A stretch of DNA of 37,326 bases. It comes from a virus. The DNA is taken from IMG/VR virus record IMGVR_UViG_3300047387_000048, positions 1 to 37,326 of that record. One strand, written 5' to 3'. The translations under genes were made by a program, and so were the position numbers. The notes beneath the pieces are model-generated. The model did not search any database. It worked only from the letters and a program-made list of their open reading frames with translations, and was not told the DNA's origin. Positions 8,843 through 37,326 of this stretch are shown here, one piece after another (position 1 is the stretch's first letter; each line of letters starts with the position of its first letter).

Positions 8843-9391
8843 ATGGCTTGTGATTTAACAAAAGGAAGAAAAGAACCTTGTAAAGATGTTGTAGGTGGTA
8901 TAAAAGCTGTCTATTTCGCTGACTTTGGCGATATAACTATTGCTTATGACTCAACAGATACAGATGTAGTTGAAGATTTAGGTACGGTAACAGTCTTTGA
9001 GTACGAAGTAAAAGGTAACTCATCTTTTGAACAAACAATCAACAGTTCAAGAGAAAATGGTACAACATTCTTTGAGCAAACTTTAAACTTGACATTACAT
9101 AAATTAACTGTTCAAGACCACAAAGAATTAAAGTTATTAGCTTTCGGAAGACCTCATGTAATTGTTCAAGATTACAATAACAACGCATTTCTAATGGGTG
9201 CAGAACACGGTTCAGATGTATCAGGTGGTACTATTGTAACTGGTGCAGCTATGGGAGATTTATCTGGATATACTTTAACGCTTACTGGTATGGAAACAAA
9301 ACCAGCTAATTTCTTAGAGGGTGCTACAGCAGCAGACCCATTCGCAGGAATGACTGGAACAGTAACTGTAACACAAGGTACTAACTCTTAA
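8843..9391 (+). CDS. Probable major tail tube protein
   Basis: 182 aa, beta-rich. The N terminus MACDLTKGRKEPCKD and the central SSRENGTTFFEQTLNLTLHKL followed by AFGRPHVIVQDYNNNAF match a pattern I associate with Bacteroidetes siphovirus tail-tube subunits. It is a single-gene transcript between two terminators, which suits an abundant structural protein. The stop codon lies inside a degenerate copy of the dispersed motif (tctTAAac). A minor capsid protein is the alternative. Confidence 0.55.
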   Translation: MACDLTKGRKEPCKDVVGGIKAVYFADFGDITIAYDSTDTDVVEDLGTVTVFEYEVKGNSSFEQTINSSRENGTTFFEQTLNLTLHKLTVQDHKELKLLAFGRPHVIVQDYNNNAFLMGAEHGSDVSGGTIVTGAAMGDLSGYTLTLTGMETKPANFLEGATAADPFAGMTGTVTVTQGTNS

Positions 9392-9420
9392 ACAGGGTAG
9401 GTTCTTAAACATAAAAGAGG
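9386..9420 (+). repeat. Degenerate tandem pair of the dispersed motif
   Basis: Two head-to-tail units, TCTTAAACAGGGTAGGT at 9386-9402 and TCTTAAACATAAAAGAGG at 9403-9420. The first contains the TAA stop of the tail-tube gene; the second runs into the terminator stem. They are diverged relatives of the TTAAACGCAGTAGGT units at 25.5 and 27.7 kb. Confidence 0.5.
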
Positions 9421-9444
9421 GGACTATAGGTCCTCTTTTTTTTT
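9415..9444 (+). terminator. Rho-independent terminator after tail tube gene
   Basis: GGAC (9421-9424) pairs with GTCC (9430-9433) and the stem extends outward through AGAGG against TCTTT with wobbles. Nine T residues follow (9436-9444). Confidence 0.8.
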
Positions 9445-9476
9445 GAACAATAATAGACTTAGTAGGTTATATAAAT

Positions 9477-9842
9477 ATGATAACATTATCGCCAACTACA
9501 AATTCACAAACAATTAGCATTATACCTAGAGCATATACAGTTGCTAGTGACTTGTCTATGGTTATATTAGAAGATGGTACGAGAAAAACTCAAACAATAA
9601 ATAGTATAACTTCATCTCTTTCAACAAATGGTAATTTCTTGCAAATGTCTATAGCATTTACTATTTTAACAGAAGAAAGCAGTTATTCATTTGAATTAAA
9701 ACAAGGCACCACATTGTTATTTAGAGGTAAAGCATATTGTACTTCACAAACTGATAATACAACAGACCATACTTTAAACAGTAATAAATATAATCAATAT
9801 GAAGACCCAAGTGAAGTTGCTCAAAAATATATAATTATATGA
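9477..9842 (+). CDS. Hypothetical structural protein, 121 aa
   Basis: Beta-rich, with N-terminal TLSPTTNSQTISIIPR and a core FELKQGTTLLFRGKAYC. The last four bases overlap the portal start (ATGA), so the two are probably translationally coupled. I associate similar small beta proteins next to Bacteroidetes phage portal genes, but I do not know a function. It could be a head or neck accessory protein. Confidence 0.6.
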   Translation: MITLSPTTNSQTISIIPRAYTVASDLSMVILEDGTRKTQTINSITSSLSTNGNFLQMSIAFTILTEESSYSFELKQGTTLLFRGKAYCTSQTDNTTDHTLNSNKYNQYEDPSEVAQKYIII

Positions 9843-16824: not shown

Positions 16825-16858
16825 TCTTAAACATAGTACGTCATTAAACACAGTATGT
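16825..16858 (+). repeat. Degenerate tandem pair of the dispersed motif overlapping a start codon
   Basis: TCTTAAACATAGTACGT (16825-16841) is followed directly by TCATTAAACACAGTATGT (16841-16858). The second unit differs from consensus by GG to TG, which creates the ATG start of the holin gene at 16855. Confidence 0.5.
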
Positions 16859-20406: not shown

Positions 20407-20558
20407 TGAATATACAATTTGAGTTTATAAAAGGTTTTATGATAGGTATTGATTATGTTGATGACATAGAAATACCTAACGTTGATTCTACAGTAGAATT
20501 AATAAGGTTTAGTTTAGGTATATTTTGGATAAATATTTTTATCTTTAAGGATGCTTGA
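20406..20558 (+). CDS. Small protein with C-terminal hydrophobic segment, 50 aa
   Basis: The ATG overlaps the RusA stop (TAATG), and the last 8 bases overlap the sigma-like gene. The C-terminal half (IRFSLGIFWINIFIFKDA) could be one membrane helix; the N-terminal half is acidic. No family recognised. Confidence 0.5.
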   Translation: MNIQFEFIKGFMIGIDYVDDIEIPNVDSTVELIRFSLGIFWINIFIFKDA

Positions 20559-21120
20559 GTTATTATCTAAAAATCATAGTACTTGGATAGCAATGGGATT
20601 GTCTATTGGAATACCAAGACATCTGGTAGAAGATTTTGTGCATGAGCTTTATTTGAGATTTAATAAATACATCAAAGACGTAAAGAAAATTATGTATAAT
20701 GAAACTGAAGTTAATAAGTTTTATGTATATGTAACTCTTAAGAATCTTTGGACAGATTATTCTAAAGCTAAAGGTAAACATAAGATAATTAGATTAGATG
20801 ATTATGAGGTCACTTATGAAATTGTTGATGGTGAATCAGATAATTATAATTATGCAAAACATTCTGCTGAAGAGAAAATAATAGGTAAAATAAAATCTGA
20901 AGTAGAAAACTGGGAGCATTGGTACGATAGAAAACTATTTAAGATTTACTATGAGACAGATATAAGCATGAGAAAATTGGCTAAAGAAACTAATATAAGT
21001 GTTACATCTATATTCAATAGTTGTAAAAATTATAAAGATATGATACAATCAAAGTTTGGTGAAGACTTTGAGGATTATTTAAACGGAGACTTTCACTTAA
21101 TAAATTATAACAATGACTAA
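20551..21120 (+). CDS. Phage sigma-70-like factor
   Basis: 189 aa. Residues about 24-80 resemble sigma region 2 (EDFVHELYLRFNKY, then NKFYVYVTLKNLWTDYSKAK). Residues about 122-165 resemble region 4, with a helix-turn-helix (MRKLAKETNISVTSIFNSC). The linker is acidic. Such short two-domain factors redirect host RNA polymerase to phage promoters. It could recognise the dispersed motif or variant -7 boxes noted elsewhere, but that is inference. Confidence 0.65.
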   Translation: MLELLSKNHSTWIAMGLSIGIPRHLVEDFVHELYLRFNKYIKDVKKIMYNETEVNKFYVYVTLKNLWTDYSKAKGKHKIIRLDDYEVTYEIVDGESDNYNYAKHSAEEKIIGKIKSEVENWEHWYDRKLFKIYYETDISMRKLAKETNISVTSIFNSCKNYKDMIQSKFGEDFEDYLNGDFHLINYNND

Positions 21121-23047: not shown

Positions 23048-23267
23048 TGAATATGATATTAAGATAGAATACGCTTACTATTTAACTCTTATAGATATTC
23101 TTATGGGTATATCTATACAAGAGATAATTGCAGAAATACCTAATTATGAAGAAAAAGAAATGTATGAATATTGTGCAGGTATAAACAGGGCAATAGAATT
23201 TAGTGAGCATAAAAACTATAGTGAGATACAAAAAGAGATATTAGATTTAAAAGATTTATATGAATAA
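22983..23267 (+). CDS. Hypothetical acidic protein, up to 94 aa
   Basis: Helical and Glu-rich (IEYAYYLTLIDILMGISIQE, IIAEIPNYEEKEMYEYCAGI). The first ATG (22983) gives a 65-base overlap with the nuclease; the ATG at 23019 (MNLLEEV) cuts this to 29 bases and may be the real start. The 3' end overlaps the DnaA-like gene by 8 bases. No domain recognised. Confidence 0.55.
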   Translation: MKNISSEKARTQMNLLEEVQYNEYDIKIEYAYYLTLIDILMGISIQEIIAEIPNYEEKEMYEYCAGINRAIEFSEHKNYSEIQKEILDLKDLYE

Positions 23268-23658
23268 GATAACATTAGAATCAATAGCAGAAAAAGTAAA
23301 CAGACATTTAGATACAGATGTAAGAAGTAAGTTACGTAAAAGAGAGTATGTTTATGGTAGAGTTATTTACTACAGAATTGCCAGAGATTTAACACATCAT
23401 ACTTTAGAAAGAATAGGCAAAGAAGTAAACAAGGACCACGCATCAGTAAATGTAGGCTTAAAGAATTTTGAGACTATGAAGTTCTATAAAGATAATTTTT
23501 ATGCAACTTACATAGAGATAATGAATGACTATAAGAATTATGTTCTGGATAAATCATATACAAATAATCCAGATACATATTGGAAGAACAAATACTTTAA
23601 GTTAAAAAGAAAAGTAGAGAGGATGTTAGATGAGAAAAAGGTCAGCCAAAGAGATTGA
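23260..23658 (+). CDS. DnaA C-terminal-like DNA-binding protein
   Basis: 132 aa. Residues 20-70 follow the DnaA domain IV helix-turn-helix: IYYRIARDLTHHTLERIGKE, then NKDHASVNVGLKNF, where DHASV (59-63) is the counterpart of the DnaA DHSTV/DHTTV DNA-contact signature. There is no AAA+ domain. Such proteins probably mark replication origins by sequence-specific binding. The dispersed motif repeats or the non-coding region at 27.6-28.1 kb are candidate targets (inference). Confidence 0.7.
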   Translation: MNKITLESIAEKVNRHLDTDVRSKLRKREYVYGRVIYYRIARDLTHHTLERIGKEVNKDHASVNVGLKNFETMKFYKDNFYATYIEIMNDYKNYVLDKSYTNNPDTYWKNKYFKLKRKVERMLDEKKVSQRD

Positions 23659-23920: not shown

Positions 23921-24308
23921 ACAATATAAATATGTCAAAGAAAATGATGGACGAAGAAACAATGGACGAAAACAGGGCGTTAGAAACGTGCCTGTTGTAC
24001 GACCCACATCTTCTGCTGCTATTAACAATGCCAAGCGAAACAGAATTGGAATCTATGCACTCAACGCAATGTCAAAAGTATTTGGAAGCGAAGAAGAAGC
24101 TTGGGAATCATTAGCAGAACAAGCAAAGCAATCGTTTCCACATCTTAAGCTTTTGTTTGAATATAAGTATGGAAAACCTATTGATGCACCAGAGGAGAAG
24201 CAACAAAAGGTAAACATAAATATAAAGAACCTTTTTACAGGCACTCAAGATGATAATAAAACTATAGAGCTTGACAATGAAGAAGCCAGTTCTGAATCAG
24301 AAATATAA
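23904..24308 (+). CDS. Terminase small subunit
   Basis: 134 aa. A basic N terminus with NDGRRNNGRKQGVRNVPVVR, a central helical part, then GSEEEAWESLAEQAKQSFPH and FEYKYGKPIDAPEEKQQ, the latter typical of small terminase-like proteins that end in a polar tail. It lies just upstream of and overlaps the large subunit by 32 bases. It would recognise phage DNA and regulate the motor. The family match is by pattern and position. Confidence 0.65.
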   Translation: MGRKPKQYKYVKENDGRRNNGRKQGVRNVPVVRPTSSAAINNAKRNRIGIYALNAMSKVFGSEEEAWESLAEQAKQSFPHLKLLFEYKYGKPIDAPEEKQQKVNINIKNLFTGTQDDNKTIELDNEEASSESEI

Positions 24309-25482
24309 TTCACTTGGTAACGATACAAGGTACTTTGTAATTACTGGAGGTAGAGGTAGTGGTAAATCATTCGCTATAACCACCTTTTTAGCCTTTCTAA
24401 CGTTTGAACAGGGTCATAAGATACTATTCACTAGGTACACTATGATAAGTGCTTCTAATTCGATTATTCCAGAGTTCCTAGAAAAGTTACAATTATATAA
24501 TATTGTAGAGCATTTTAGAATAACTAAGGATGAAATCTTAAACACAAGCACTGGAAGCTCTATAATATTCAAAGGCATTCGTACATCAGCAGGTAATCAG
24601 ACAGCAGCTCTGAAGTCTATAAATGGCATAACTACATGGGTACTTGATGAAGCTGAAGAGATGACTAAGGAGGAGGATTTTGATAAGATAGACCAATCAG
24701 TCAGAGCTAAGAATAAACCTAATAGGGTTATAATGATATTGAACCCAGCCACAAAAGAACATTGGTTATATCAAAGATTCTTTGCAGCTAAAGCTGTAAA
24801 TCCAGGAACTAATAACTGGAAAGATAATGTTACATATATACACACAACATTTAAAGATAACATTGATAACCTATCAGATTCTTTTCTTTTACAATTAGAA
24901 GACATTAGACGCAGAAGACCAGATAGATATAATCATCAGATAATGGGTGGATGGTTAGACAAAGCAGAAGGAGTTGTATTTAATAATTGGAAGATAGGAC
25001 CATTTAATAATGATGCTGATTATATATTTGGACAAGACTTTGGATTCTCTGTTGACCCAACAACTCTTATAAAGGTTGCAATAAATAAAGATAGGAAACT
25101 TATGTGGATTAAAACTATGTATGCTAAACCAGGTTTATCTACTAAAGAGATAGGAGAACTCAATAGGCGTTATGCAGAAGATAGTATAATTGTATGTGAC
25201 AATGCAGAACCTAGACTTATCTCAGAGCTACAAGAATACTGTAACCTAAAGCCGACCATTAAACGCAGTGGGTCTATTCTGACAGGGATTGCTCTGGTTC
25301 AGGACTATGATTTAATAATTGATGCTGATAGTGTAGAGCTGATAAAAGAGCTAAATAATTATGTTTGGCATGAGAGGAACGAAAAACCTGTTGATAAATG
25401 GAACCATCAGTTAGACGCACTTCGATACTCAGCACAGTATTTCCTCGCCAACGCAAATAAAGGCGTTTATGTAATAAGGTAG
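24277..25482 (+). CDS. terL: Terminase large subunit
   Basis: 401 aa from the ATG at 24277. ATPase part: Walker A GGRGSGKS (24-31), Walker B VLDEAEE (D124, E125) and the coupling stretch IMILNP. RNase H-like nuclease part: FGQDFGFSVD (D254), IIVCDNAEPR (D308) and DKWNHQLDALRY (D380). It packages DNA into the prohead and cuts concatemers. All key residues are present and the length is normal. No cos-like site is evident; headful packaging would fit the circularly permuted map. Confidence 0.93.
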   Translation: MKKPVLNQKYNSLGNDTRYFVITGGRGSGKSFAITTFLAFLTFEQGHKILFTRYTMISASNSIIPEFLEKLQLYNIVEHFRITKDEILNTSTGSSIIFKGIRTSAGNQTAALKSINGITTWVLDEAEEMTKEEDFDKIDQSVRAKNKPNRVIMILNPATKEHWLYQRFFAAKAVNPGTNNWKDNVTYIHTTFKDNIDNLSDSFLLQLEDIRRRRPDRYNHQIMGGWLDKAEGVVFNNWKIGPFNNDADYIFGQDFGFSVDPTTLIKVAINKDRKLMWIKTMYAKPGLSTKEIGELNRRYAEDSIIVCDNAEPRLISELQEYCNLKPTIKRSGSILTGIALVQDYDLIIDADSVELIKELNNYVWHERNEKPVDKWNHQLDALRYSAQYFLANANKGVYVIR

Positions 25483-25649
25483 TCATTAAACGCAGTAGGT
25501 ATTATATAATCATTAAACGCAATAGGTATAGGGTGGGCTACTTCAACATAAAGAAATGTGATTGCATACACAAATAAAAATGTTAGTGTAACAAAAGCAA
25601 AAGCTAAACAGATAATTAAGTACATTTCCATCCAAGCTTCCTTAGTCAT
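25467..25649 (-). CDS. Single-pass membrane peptide, only minus-strand gene
   Basis: 60 aa from the minus ATG at 25649-25647. MTKEAWMEMYLIICLAFAFV continues into TLTFLFVYAITFLY as one long hydrophobic helix, followed by a polar tail containing AFNDY twice because two dispersed-motif units are translated. A perfect TACCTTTG -7 box on the minus strand (25731-25724) would start transcription near 25717. The start codon itself lies within a motif unit. It converges on terL, overlapping its end by 16 bases. Could be an early host-membrane modifier or superinfection-exclusion peptide; function is unknown. Confidence 0.45.
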   Translation of the reverse strand: MTKEAWMEMYLIICLAFAFVTLTFLFVYAITFLYVEVAHPIPIAFNDYIIPTAFNDYLIT

Positions 25650-25698
25650 TAAACGCAGTAAGGTTTGTTTAGTTCTGACTCTTAAACGCAGTAGGGTT
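25483..25698 (+). repeat. Cluster of four dispersed-motif units
   Basis: Units at 25483-25500 (TCATTAAACGCAGTAGGT), 25510-25527 (AATAGGT variant, 27 bases from the first), 25646-25664 (one extra A) and 25680-25698 (ends GGGTT). All are in + orientation. The first begins right after the terL stop. In the gap 25483-25814 these units, the minus-strand peptide and two outward promoters are what I can identify. Confidence 0.8.
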
Positions 25699-25723
25699 AT
25701 TTTGCTTGGCATATTCATAAATA

Positions 25724-25731
25724 CAAAGGTA
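25724..25731 (-). promoter_or_regulatory. Minus-strand promoter -7 box
   Basis: Read on the minus strand this is TACCTTTG, a perfect TAnnTTTG. Upstream on that strand lies TTAAAATTTTGTTAAAAT, similar to the direct repeat at 27771 and 27892. No canonical TTG exists at the usual 19-base spacing, so -33 recognition is unclear. Confidence 0.5.
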
Positions 25732-25788
25732 GTGAAATTTTAACAAAATTTTAACATAATTTATTATTAATGTTATAAACTTTTTACT

Positions 25789-25796
25789 TAGGTTTG
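25789..25796 (+). promoter_or_regulatory. Plus-strand promoter -7 box for the 447-aa gene
   Basis: TAGGTTTG is a perfect TAnnTTTG. It lies 19 bases before the ATG at 25815 and faces away from the minus-strand box at 25731. The -33 region is weak. Confidence 0.5.
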
Positions 25797-25814
25797 CACC
25801 ATAATTTTTATAAT

Positions 25815-27155
25815 ATGAATAATAATTACGAACACAAATACAAAGAGTTAGATAAACAAATATCTAACGCAGAAACTAGCATTAATAAGATTAATAAGCT
25901 AGAATTAAATAGGCAAAAAAAGGATATTAAAAAACTTTATAAAGCTTATTTAAGTGAGTTAAACACTTTAGAGGATAATGTTTTAGTATGGGATACTAGG
26001 TTCAAAAAGTTCTGGAGGTGTCCAGATATTTTAGAATATGATTCTATTAGAAATGTAGTTGTTAATTTTTCAGATTCTGAAAGAGAAGAGTTACTACCAA
26101 TAATTGAAGCAAAATCTGGTAGTGAAATAACCTATGAAATCTTTGAGGATTTTTATACTAATGGCTTTTCTCAAGATTCATTTCACTTATATTTTTATCT
26201 TTTTGATAAGGATACTTATGAGAGTAAAATAAGAGTTAGGTATCTTGATAAAAATATCTGTGGTATGTCTGAAACTTTTGCTAAAAACATATACAGAGAT
26301 ATTAGAGAGCTTTCAGAAGATTTGGGAGCTTTTATTAAATATCAAGTTTATTTTACACATGATTCTGAAGATAGTAATAAAGGAAAATACTATGTTTATA
26401 AATTAGAGCTTGGTAGAAGATTTCATACGCATTATAATGATGAGTATAACAAAATTGACTATATAAATATTGCAAATGATTTTGCTCTATATCAAAGACT
26501 TTTACTCAACACTTCTAATTTTATGGTTATGACAAATGAGTTTCATGACAAAGTTAATGTAACATATTTTCCAGAGACTTCAGAGCTTAGAGATGAGCTT
26601 AATGAACTGAAGAGACAAAGGAGGATTAATTATAGGCAATGGTTATATAACAATGTAGATTCTACTATAATCAAACCTTTAAATACAGATACTACTGAAA
26701 AGATGATTGAGTGGGGATATGATACTTCTAAGATGAATAAGTGTAGAAAGTTTTATCCTAACAATACAGATACTATTCATGGAGTAAATCAAATTGATGT
26801 ATTGAAAAGATTAGAAAGTAAGGTAAAGCTTAGAATCTGGATAAAAAAAATGTTTTATATATCTGATGATAAGTTAATGACTGGTAAAATCAAAGACGCT
26901 AAAGCAATATATGTTCCAATGTACATTGATAAGTTAGTTGACCCTAGATTGTATTTAGACTTTTTACAGGGATATCAAGAAAATGTTTTAGAGTTTGGTA
27001 TATTAGATTTTAGTATTCATGAGGAGGTTAATTTTGATAAGATTGCTTATGATAATCTAAATCAAAGCTATAAAGTTGATAACTGGAAATGGAAGTTTCC
27101 AACAGAAGTTCTGGATTCCTATGATATTTCAGAGTTAACCTTAACAGCTTGGTAA
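25815..27155 (+). CDS. Orphan hypothetical protein, 447 aa
   Basis: Start at ATG 25815; an in-frame TTG at 25794 overlaps the promoter box and is rejected. The N-terminal 60 residues are a Lys-rich coiled coil (YEHKYKELDKQISNAETSIN). The middle is rich in Tyr, Asp and Phe (FHLYFYLFDKDTYESKIRVR). A basic segment near residues 260-275 (LNELKRQRRINYRQWL) could bind nucleic acid. I recognise no catalytic motif, membrane segment or signal peptide. It is the largest gene in the early/accessory region, has its own promoter, and is followed by two small genes. It could be a replication initiator or host-takeover protein; neither is shown. Confidence 0.65.
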   Translation: MNNNYEHKYKELDKQISNAETSINKINKLELNRQKKDIKKLYKAYLSELNTLEDNVLVWDTRFKKFWRCPDILEYDSIRNVVVNFSDSEREELLPIIEAKSGSEITYEIFEDFYTNGFSQDSFHLYFYLFDKDTYESKIRVRYLDKNICGMSETFAKNIYRDIRELSEDLGAFIKYQVYFTHDSEDSNKGKYYVYKLELGRRFHTHYNDEYNKIDYINIANDFALYQRLLLNTSNFMVMTNEFHDKVNVTYFPETSELRDELNELKRQRRINYRQWLYNNVDSTIIKPLNTDTTEKMIEWGYDTSKMNKCRKFYPNNTDTIHGVNQIDVLKRLESKVKLRIWIKKMFYISDDKLMTGKIKDAKAIYVPMYIDKLVDPRLYLDFLQGYQENVLEFGILDFSIHEEVNFDKIAYDNLNQSYKVDNWKWKFPTEVLDSYDISELTLTAW

Positions 27156-27274
27156 TGAAATTAGATATTAGAAAACACGTAATGTACGTTGAAATAGATG
27201 ATTATGTTTTTTATATTGATTATAGCACAGACGAACCTATAATTGATAAATGGCATAAATATAATAAAGCATAA
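27155..27274 (+). CDS. Hypothetical protein, 39 aa
   Basis: MKLDIRKHVMYVEIDDYVFY, then an acidic stretch and a basic end. Its ATG overlaps the stop of the 447-aa gene (TAATG), indicating coupling. Could be a small beta-hairpin regulator; no family recognised. Confidence 0.5.
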   Translation: MKLDIRKHVMYVEIDDYVFYIDYSTDEPIIDKWHKYNKA

Positions 27275-27278
27275 TAAT

Positions 27279-27521
27279 ATGAATAAAAAAGACATAGAAT
27301 ACAAAAAGAAGCATATTATTTATTCTTGGGCTTCTGACTTCTTAGATTCTCTTGACTTTGTTGATTATACAATTTATAAGTTAAGCACTTCTAAGGATGA
27401 TAGGATGACTTTGTTTGACTTGGATTCAGACAGAACTTTAAGTGCTGAAGAGTACGAAGACATATCTAATAAGATATTTGATGAGTTTTGTGAGATAATA
27501 AGTAAAGAAGTTAATTCTTAA
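27279..27521 (+). CDS. Hypothetical acidic protein, 80 aa
   Basis: Start at ATG 27279, 4 bases after the previous stop; an upstream ATG at 27243 would overlap that gene. Helical and Asp/Glu-rich (WASDFLDSLDFVDYTIYKLS, AEEYEDISNKIFDEFCEIIS). The TAA lies inside a variant dispersed-motif unit. The strong negative charge resembles DNA-mimic or anti-host proteins, which is a weak inference. Confidence 0.55.
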   Translation: MNKKDIEYKKKHIIYSWASDFLDSLDFVDYTIYKLSTSKDDRMTLFDLDSDRTLSAEEYEDISNKIFDEFCEIISKEVNS

Positions 27522-27532
27522 ACATAGTAGGT
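27516..27532 (+). repeat. Variant dispersed-motif unit at a stop codon
   Basis: TCTTAAACATAGTAGGT. It differs from the consensus only at GC to AT in the core and supplies the TAA stop of the 80-aa gene. Confidence 0.65.
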
Positions 27533-27533
27533 G

Positions 27534-27595
27534 GTCAGGCAGTTAGTATGAAAGGACTAACATTAGAAAGACGATATAAAAACGTAATGCCTGAT
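27534..27595 (+). ncRNA. Structured RNA element around a small start codon
   Basis: TCAGGCA (27535-27541) pairs with TGCCTGA (27588-27594). Directly inside it, GTTAGT (27542-27547) pairs perfectly with ACTAAC (27556-27561), and the 8-base loop contains ATG (27548). A minor ACG/CGT pair follows. Seven T lie at 27608-27614, shortly downstream. It may be a small RNA or a leader controlling the 25-aa frame. Confidence 0.4.
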
Positions 27596-27625
27596 TCGTC
27601 CATCTGCTTTTTTTATTACTCTTAA
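27548..27625 (+). CDS. Possible 25-aa peptide
   Basis: MKGLTLERRYKNVMPDSSIC, then FFYYS. The start codon is in a hairpin loop and the stop TAA is supplied by the next dispersed-motif unit (27620-27636). Only size-limited evidence; it may instead be part of a non-coding structured RNA. Confidence 0.3.
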   Translation: MKGLTLERRYKNVMPDSSICFFYYS

Positions 27626-27751
27626 ACGCAGTAGGTAGGAGATTTTTCATTTTTCATGATTGGTTTTAATAGTTTGCTTCTACCTGTTGCGTTTTCTTAA
27701 ACGCAGTAGGGTTAATCATTAAACGCAGTAGGTTCTTAAACGCAGTAGGTT
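27620..27751 (+). repeat. Cluster of four consensus dispersed-motif units
   Basis: Units at 27620-27636, 27695-27713, 27716-27733 and 27734-27751; the last two are exactly head to tail. All share TTAAACGCAGTAGG. No coding frame explains the conservation here, so these are the best examples for defining the motif. Confidence 0.85.
27683..27710 (+). repeat. Inverted copy of the motif forming a 12-bp hairpin
   Basis: CCTGTTGCGTTT (27683-27694), loop TCTT, then AAACGCAGTAGG (27699-27710). All 12 positions pair, two of them as G-T wobbles, suggesting the RNA form may matter. It is the only partly inverted unit seen. Confidence 0.65.
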
Positions 27752-35659: not shown

Positions 35660-37326
35660 TGAATCAAAAGATACAACTCTATATAGAAAATGAACAGGTT
35701 GATGTTTTTCAGGATGGTTCAATAAACATAGTAAGTTCTATAAAAGATTTTAGGTCTCCTGATAAATTGTTTACTGATTTTAGTAGAAACTTTTCATTAC
35801 CTGCTACTGCAAGAAACAATAAAGTATTTAAACATTATTACAATTATGATATATCTCAAGCAGGTTTTGATGCAAGAAAAACAAAGTCAGCTAGAATAGA
35901 AATAAACGATAGACCTTATAAAGATGGATACATAACTTTAGATAGTGTAGATTTAAAGTATAATAAACCTAGTACGTATAAAGTTACTTTTTATGGTAAT
36001 TTTAGATTGTTAAAAGAATTACTAAACAACAGAAAATTATCTGAATTAAATTGGCTTGATAACTTTGATATATTAGATACTTACTTTGATTCTGGTGGAG
36101 AATCATTTTATCATTATCTAACCACTAGTAAAGATAAAACTTCTACTGTAGAAAAAAACATAGGAACTGGTGATGGAATAAAAAAAACATTTAGAATAGA
36201 TTACACTCCATATCCAAAACTAAATACTGATTTTAAATTATTTAAGGCAGGAGTAGAAGTTTCTACTTCTGATTTTTCATATTCATATACAACAGGAGAC
36301 ATAACATTCAACACAGCACCTGCTGTTGGTAATGCAATAACCACAAAGCTTTTCTATAAACAACCTATAGTAGTTCCTTTAATTTCTACATCAGAAAGAT
36401 TATACTACAATGCTTCAACATCAAGAGGTTACAACGAGCTTAGAGATGGTAATTTATATTATGATTCTACAAGTTATACAAAAACAAACGGACTTAAATA
36501 TGAATACTTAAAACCAGCTATTAGAGTTCATTTAATTATAAGAGCTATTGAACAATTTATAAATCAAAACACAGATACAAACATAGAGTTCTCAAATGAC
36601 TTTCTTAATGAAACAAATAAAGATTACTATGATTTATATATGTGGTTAAATAAAGATAAAAAAGACAATACACAATTTGACCAAAGTCAGAAAGTAACAA
36701 ACATTAATACATTTAACATACAAACATCTAGTTCTTATTCTAGCAATTACGCATCTTCAAATCCTGTACTAACAATTACATCCTCAAATCAAAGTGGTGC
36801 AACATCAGGAGTTGTAGGTGATACAATAAATGTATCAGGTGTAAACAATCAACAGATAGATAATGTAGAATTAAGGTTTAAGTCTATTCCTGCAACGGCT
36901 GCTATATATTCTCTTAATGTTTTAAGAAATGGTCAATTAGTAAGAAGTTTTGCTAACTTAACAGGAACTACAACTAATACAATAGAGGTAGTTCAAGATG
37001 GTAATTATACATTTCAAATAGTTACTGATACTACAGTATCAATAAACTTTACATCTGGTTTCGAAGCTAAATTTGTTATTAGACCAGACAATGACGAAAC
37101 ATCTTACAATGACGTAATTATTGCTGGTTCAACATTAAACATAGCAGGTACACCAAACAATTTTAGCATACCAGAGAATATGCCTGATATGACAATATTA
37201 GAATTTTTATCTGGTATATTTAAGATGTTTAATTTAGTTTGTTTTGTAGAAGGTGCAGAAAATTCATCTTATACTACCACACAATCTAATATGAAAAGAA
37301 TAAGAGTTATGACTTTTGATGCGTAT
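35659..37326 (+). CDS. Baseplate/tail-tip protein, second allele, 3'-truncated
   Basis: Starts MNQKIQLYIENEQVDVFQDG, then SINIVSSIKDFRSP, and runs 556 codons to the window end in frame. It is the same protein as the gene at 3-2882: N-terminal and central parts are highly similar, while residues about 350-490 differ strongly. This copy shows the true N terminus that the left copy lacks. A direct join to base 1 would stop immediately (TAA), so the gene is cut by the contig end rather than complete. Confidence 0.65.
   Translation, partial: MNQKIQLYIENEQVDVFQDGSINIVSSIKDFRSPDKLFTDFSRNFSLPATARNNKVFKHYYNYDISQAGFDARKTKSARIEINDRPYKDGYITLDSVDLKYNKPSTYKVTFYGNFRLLKELLNNRKLSELNWLDNFDILDTYFDSGGESFYHYLTTSKDKTSTVEKNIGTGDGIKKTFRIDYTPYPKLNTDFKLFKAGVEVSTSDFSYSYTTGDITFNTAPAVGNAITTKLFYKQPIVVPLISTSERLYYNASTSRGYNELRDGNLYYDSTSYTKTNGLKYEYLKPAIRVHLIIRAIEQFINQNTDTNIEFSNDFLNETNKDYYDLYMWLNKDKKDNTQFDQSQKVTNINTFNIQTSSSYSSNYASSNPVLTITSSNQSGATSGVVGDTINVSGVNNQQIDNVELRFKSIPATAAIYSLNVLRNGQLVRSFANLTGTTTNTIEVVQDGNYTFQIVTDTTVSINFTSGFEAKFVIRPDNDETSYNDVIIAGSTLNIAGTPNNFSIPENMPDMTILEFLSGIFKMFNLVCFVEGAENSSYTTTQSNMKRIRVMTFDAY
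35723..37326. repeat. Right copy of diverged terminal redundancy
   Basis: Counterpart of 1-1601. The first 124 bases are identical; the first difference is T at 35847 against C at 125. Later differences are dense and often change amino acids. Confidence 0.85.

Follow-up and report, generated by a model that had tools for sequence, protein, structure and literature searches.

The closest described counterparts of the repeat analyzed here are the stoperators of cluster A mycobacteriophages (L5, Bxb1), asymmetric 13-bp sites that occur 24–34 times per genome, mostly between genes and in one orientation with respect to transcription (PMC3029335). The stoperator sequence correlates with one residue of the repressor HTH (PMC3029335). 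The sites are bound by a monomer, and their orientation is required to halt elongation (PMC9283540). In its anatomy, our repeat with the 14-mer core TTAAACGCAGTAGG appears to resemble the stoperators, being likewise short, asymmetric, present in many copies, of a single orientation and mainly intergenic. Unlike stoperators, its copies are packed into dense, odd-spaced tandem arrays located at stop codons, and its candidate reader is sigma-like instead of a repressor; no repressor was recognized among the window proteins scanned. A role in lysogeny or prophage silencing is unlikely, since no match to an integrase or resolvase was found in 21 genomes, the records of which may be incomplete.

A second comparison is offered by the PeSL promoter/terminator cassettes of T4-type phages, reportedly described by Arbiol et al. 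in 2010 and cited in PMC4503421. As in these cassettes, repeated intergenic modules with a promoter and a stem-loop lie between small variable genes. In contrast to PeSL, what is conserved here is a 14-mer, which by itself constitutes no promoter and no hairpin and which also occurs within genes.

Sigma-dependent pause elements and the loading sites of Q and AlpA are DNA elements connected with a pause that depends on sigma and with the control of downstream terminators (PMC6606751, PMC9371919). Such sites are promoter-proximal, in contrast to the motif arrays with their location at the ends of operons, and a Q-like protein was not identified. Finally, the ops element of RfaH is an oriented 12-nt sequence that is read in the non-template strand of the elongating polymerase (PMC2871177). 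By eye, GCAGTAGGGTT resembles ops (GCGGTAGCGTG) at 8 of 11 positions, a likeness that is lost in part by motifs with AT instead of GC at their center (AT-type). Unlike the motif arrays, ops is located in 5′ leaders, and no NusG paralogue was recognized among the window proteins scanned.

The reading that we favor, tentatively and at somewhat less than even chances, takes the motif for an oriented element that punctuates transcription and is read by a phage factor, for which the sigma-like protein F19 would be the best candidate.

The repeat in the window

The window, i. e. the whole stretch of DNA that was analyzed, comprises the 37,326 bases of a linear virus record from IMG/VR. It holds nine copies of the 14-mer core with zero or one mismatch, without exception on the plus strand, where about none would be expected, and nine matches to an 18-mer form with up to three mismatches, compared with 0.05 expected in shuffles. 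The repeat is genuine and beyond chance in the window. Its copies and their surroundings are as follows:

9388–9401, plus strand: weak copy TTAAACAGGGTAGG; its TAA (9389–9391) is the stop codon of gene 8843
9405–9418, plus strand: half copy, 17 bases past the 9388 copy, extending into a terminator stem
16827–16840, plus strand: weak copy upstream of the holin gene
16844–16857, plus strand: weak copy, 17 bases past the 16827 copy, including the holin ATG at 16855
24271–25482, plus strand: terminase large subunit gene, upstream neighbor of array A
25259–25272, plus strand: intragenic copy TTAAACGCAGTGGG with one mismatch, coding I-K-R-S-G within the terminase large subunit gene
25486–25499, plus strand: array A1, copy 1, exact, 4 bases past the terminase stop
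25513–25526, plus strand: array A1, copy 2, one mismatch, 27 bases from A1 copy 1
25649–25662, plus strand: array A2, copy 1, one mismatch; its initial TCAT contains the possible ATG of a minus-strand ORF
25682–25695, plus strand: array A2, copy 2, a perfect match, 33 bases on from A2 copy 1
27518–27531, plus strand: array B, copy 1 (TTAAACATAGTAGG); its TAA (27519–27521) serves as stop codon for the ORF that ends here
27622–27635, plus strand: array B, copy 2, a perfect match that provides the left arm of an 18-bp stem
27697–27710, plus strand: array B, copy 3, exact
27719–27732, plus strand: array B, copy 4, a perfect match, 22 bases on from copy 3, which is one of the rare even distances
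27736–27749, plus strand: array B, copy 5, a perfect match, 17 bases on from copy 4

The initial annotation of this DNA had listed eight strong copies, all of which are found in their places (arrays A1 and A2 as well as copies 2 to 5 of array B); they lie on the plus strand, in tandem layout and mostly at the ends of genes. From its five weaker copies, those at 9388, 16827, 16844 and 27518 are real, and that at 9405 is merely a half copy; the one-mismatch copy at 25259 within the terminase gene had been overlooked. The motif indeed supplies stop codons (9389–9391 and 27519–27521) and encloses the ATG of gene 16855, and it was rightly called non-palindromic.

Between the two motif pairs of array A lies a small minus-strand ORF (25467–25649), apparently for a protein with one TM helix (MTKEAWMEMYLIICLAFAFV...). 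Similar ORFs occur in the genomes G012, G028, G021 and G022, and in G027 and G011 an unrelated minus-strand ORF (F76) takes its place. Elsewhere, the two window ends (45–2882 and about 35700–37326) encode similar sequence, for example near 519 and 36241, which perhaps represents a duplicated structural gene.

Occurrence in related phages

The motif is present in more than 100 IMG/VR contigs, frequently as tandem arrays of 2–5 copies. At least 120 stretches were matched in a 14-mer scan of viral contigs, about half of which have a single copy, possibly by chance. Exact tandem pairs were found in 118 stretches and the TTAAACATAGTAGG form in 72, and in a related phage group a third form, CAACATAATRGG, takes the place of the motif at the same location. 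Tandem motif pairs were found neither in GTDB species genomes nor in plasmids; cultured phage records yielded nothing beyond weak, chance-level matches, a BLAST of the array region against phages just short chance matches, and the motif sequence was not found in the literature searched. By terminase, the closest cultured relatives are the Nonlabens phages P12024S/L with 51% identity, and the motif is absent from P12024S. The carriers form a large, uncultured and for the most part marine group of phages; the cultured phages closest to them have a flavobacterium as host.

One contig (G008) covers a full circle and has the terminase end twice, with three and four motif copies; judging from these ends, arrays may differ in copy number among members of one population. 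Proteins of family F77 from the accessory or replication regions of G027, G011 and G020 resemble HNH homing endonucleases by eye.

Orientation and position at gene ends

Across 18 near-complete relatives (611 kb), 184 copies lie in sense and 0 in antisense orientation, with a density of 1.7 per kb in the accessory region versus 0.08–0.16 elsewhere. Copies are mainly intergenic, a minority being located inside genes. In 20 relatives that were available nearly whole, array A begins directly at the stop of the terminase gene or close to it. The majority of these relatives also have arrays B and C, which divide modules of mostly small, variable genes ahead of the conserved gene F12 (29505 in the window). 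A non-redundant set comprises 121 arrays, for 88 of which an upstream ORF was detected. In 26 of the 88 cases, the first copy supplies the stop codon of this ORF with its TAA; in another 32, the stop codon lies 6–7 bases before the first copy (58/88 together). Around the minus-strand ORF between the array A pairs, which is shared by the window and several relatives, the motif orientation is unchanged and hence tracks the main direction of transcription, not the nearest gene. As judged by sequence comparison, the motif is present in relatives and linked to gene ends, two of the points on which the initial annotation had let its proposal stand or fall.

Copies within genes and terminators

Inside genes, 22 sense copies with one mismatch were counted, compared with 0.2 expected from synonymous shuffles, and 12 of these represent the same terminase site; antisense copies within genes were absent at up to two mismatches. 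The terminase site TTAAACGCAGTGGGTCTAT is identical, including its silent positions, in all genomes having the site, and neighboring silent sites vary. Carriers of the site code Ser, other genomes Lys or Gln. The pattern at this copy is in line with selection on DNA or RNA, not on protein.

The following terminator and promoter features adjoin the copies in the window:

9413–9441, plus strand: intrinsic terminator hairpin at the F8/F9 boundary (genes 8843/9477)
27533–27612, plus strand: terminator-like hairpin with T run, immediately downstream of copy 1 of array B (−25.7 kcal/mol for 27515–27612)
27677–27694, plus strand: right arm CTTCTACCTGTTGCGTTT, pairing with the 27622 copy to form the 18-bp stem
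25740–25756, plus strand: TTAACA-N5-TTAACA box after array A2
25789–25796, plus strand: TAGGTTTG, Bacteroidetes-type −7 box (TAnnTTTG) ahead of the next gene

An intrinsic terminator stands at the F8/F9 boundary (window 9391–9477) in nearly all of the 21 genomes, and about half have the gap from stop codon to hairpin filled by two motif copies at a distance of 17 bases. In several unrelated arrays, the last copy itself is the left terminator arm, and the right arm changes to match the motif variants; AAACGCAGTGGGGTTTCACTGCGTTTTTTT and AAACGCAATAGGTCTTCTTATTGCGTTTTTT are examples of such independent right arms. Stems of at least 8 number 16 versus 3.6 in shuffles (209 arrays), the motif being an arm in a minority of arrays. 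Strict intrinsic terminators are found just downstream of about one tenth of the arrays (11 versus 3; 121 arrays), and in G003 and G026 a terminator precedes array A. The motif is not self-complementary, makes no GC-rich hairpin with a T run of its own and is by itself no intrinsic terminator. The earlier description as not terminator-like is nevertheless correct in part only: the 27622 copy is part of an 18-bp stem, those at 9388 and 27518 directly precede terminator-like hairpins with T runs, and several relatives use the motif as left terminator arm.

Copies that are sense-only, occur inside genes as well and adjoin terminators would also be expected if the motif acted as RNA, its copies in 3′ UTRs controlling mRNA stability or the 3′ ends by way of processing or through binding of a small RNA or protein. 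Much of the motif variation moreover consists of transitions that RNA pairing could tolerate. Yet, no hairpin is conserved, the spacers fold like shuffled ones, and the window has no Rfam match, so that we consider an action as RNA rather unlikely.

Promoters and a candidate reader

Usually, a Bacteroidetes-type promoter comes after the array. TAnnTTTG was found downstream of 92 of the 121 arrays, compared with 54 upstream and 26 in shuffles, and TTAACA-N5-TTAACA boxes are likewise enriched downstream (53 versus 0; 121 arrays). These boxes have an 11-bp period, front the promoters of accessory genes and presumably resemble the Pho boxes of Bacillus. Palindromes like TTTAGAATnATTCTAAA, which resemble Fur-type boxes, were observed downstream of arrays in G012, G020, G002 and G021 and may point to accessory genes being controlled by nutrients.

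Two proteins encoded in the window had been suggested to bind the motif:

20551–21120, plus strand: ECF-sigma-like protein F19, which may be the best candidate reader (weak Pfam matches in family members, Foldseek, helix covariation)
23260–23658, plus strand: DnaA domain IV-like protein F20, a weaker candidate reader

F19 is present in nearly all group members and has a very conserved C-terminal HTH; motif-less relatives have an F19-type sigma-like protein, too. Pfam assigns Sigma70_r2 to 9 of 17 members and r4 to 3–4 with weak scores (best E 6e-5), the window member being without a sigma match. The F19 structure was predicted with moderate quality (pLDDT 73, pTM 0.40), and its top Foldseek matches are nearly all sigma factors with ECF types at the top (top E 7.9e-4), at low whole-chain TM-scores of 0.3–0.4. 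The F19 helix NSCKNY goes along with 254 GC-type versus 47 AT-type motif copies, helices with Val/Ile in place of Cys with 15 GC-type versus 68 AT-type copies, and motif-less relatives have NTLTN or NTLSN. The exchange of Cys for Val/Ile hence largely tracks the change of the motif center from GC to AT, a partial covariation that is suggestive. Exceptions are L278 (Ile with GC) as well as L270, L271 and L334 (Cys with AT), and the residue changed just 2–3 times on the tree, a number at which a sign test is unable to reach significance. Together with the sigma-factor fold match, this covariation lends suggestive support to the product of 20551 as the binding protein. The case for the DnaA-C-like product of 23260 is weaker, its HTH region being poorly conserved across phages that share one near-invariant motif.

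A sigma-like reader would also suit a different function, in which the motif is a −35-type element for an F19-type sigma and the arrays are tandem promoters of the next operon. The motif is always oriented with transcription, the arrays sit upstream of operons, and the sigma-4-like helix partly covaries with the motif. However, no second (−10) element is conserved at a fixed distance past the last copy, where positions +14 to +16 are T-rich and no information is found beyond +16; the host-type TAnnTTTG promoter lies farther downstream at variable distance; and the F8/F9 motif pair leads straight into a terminator. Tandem promoters are thus unlikely.

Module boundaries and other functions

The initial annotation had also considered a recombination boundary, in line with which the arrays flank variable modules. 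Conceivably, the copies are homology or recombinase sites that shuffle accessory modules, similar to the promoter/terminator cassettes of T4-type phages: a block of array, F34 and array is present or absent depending on the genome, and array copy number differs between the G008 contig ends. Such a function is nevertheless quite improbable, given that the 21 genomes yielded no integrase or resolvase, that genes are gained and lost inside modules, too, and that the silent-site conservation within genes is left unexplained. Its further suggestion of origin iterons, here extended to packaging (pac) sites, for the DnaA-C-like protein or the small terminase may draw on direct repeats adjoining the terminase genes and on copies in terL and the gene before terL of some genomes, but it is very improbable in view of several separate, irregularly spaced arrays per genome instead of one regular cluster, of copies within genes, at several operon ends including those of the structural region and usually at stop codons, and of a DnaA-like HTH that is unconserved while the motif is conserved.

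Odd spacing of neighboring copies

The start-to-start distances between neighboring copies are mostly 17, 19, 21, 23, 25, 27, 29, 33 and 37 bases. Among distinct spacers, odd and even distances occur at 142:14 (142/156), and at 81:6 (81/87) in the AT-type set. Arrays of CAACATAAT are also odd-spaced (15, 17, 19) with 32 as the single exception, and the window has one even neighbor distance (22, from 27697 to 27719). Very coarse spacer clustering, which merges clearly unrelated spacers, weakens the odd excess to 19:7 (p = 0.014).

Several causes were considered and rejected. The series 17, 19, 21, 23, 25... is incompatible with helical phasing at 10.5 bp, and the distances do not run in multiples of 3 as required for codon phasing. 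Hairpins in the spacers were no stronger than those of shuffled spacers, whichever strand was folded, and scans for complementarity revealed no single register. To our knowledge, a two-base periodicity is unlike any known DNA-binding protein. The odd-spacing rule is unaccounted for by the punctuation model and poses a sharp, falsifiable constraint on every model.

Proposed role and implications

Taken up again, the favored reading as an oriented punctuation element would work as follows. One or more copies would mark the end or hand-over of a plus-strand transcript, just past the stop codon and before a terminator and/or the next promoter. Most likely, the motif would act while RNA polymerase transcribes through it, via recognition by a phage factor. 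The sigma-4-like helix of F19 may read the motif, and its sigma-2-like part may contact the polymerase, giving a pause that favors termination or permits regulated read-through. The element might accordingly strengthen or relieve termination. A more specific version, in which an ECF-sigma-like protein was converted from starting to punctuating transcription and reads 14-mer arrays at operon ends on the elongating polymerase with mandatory odd spacing, is doubtful.

For a large, uncultured and mainly marine phage group, the motif would provide a common regulatory signal at operon ends with a testable candidate reader. Since the arrays delimit modules of accessory genes, they can aid annotation. 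If a sigma-like protein indeed acts at the ends of operons and not at their starts, the known roles of sigma-like factors would widen.
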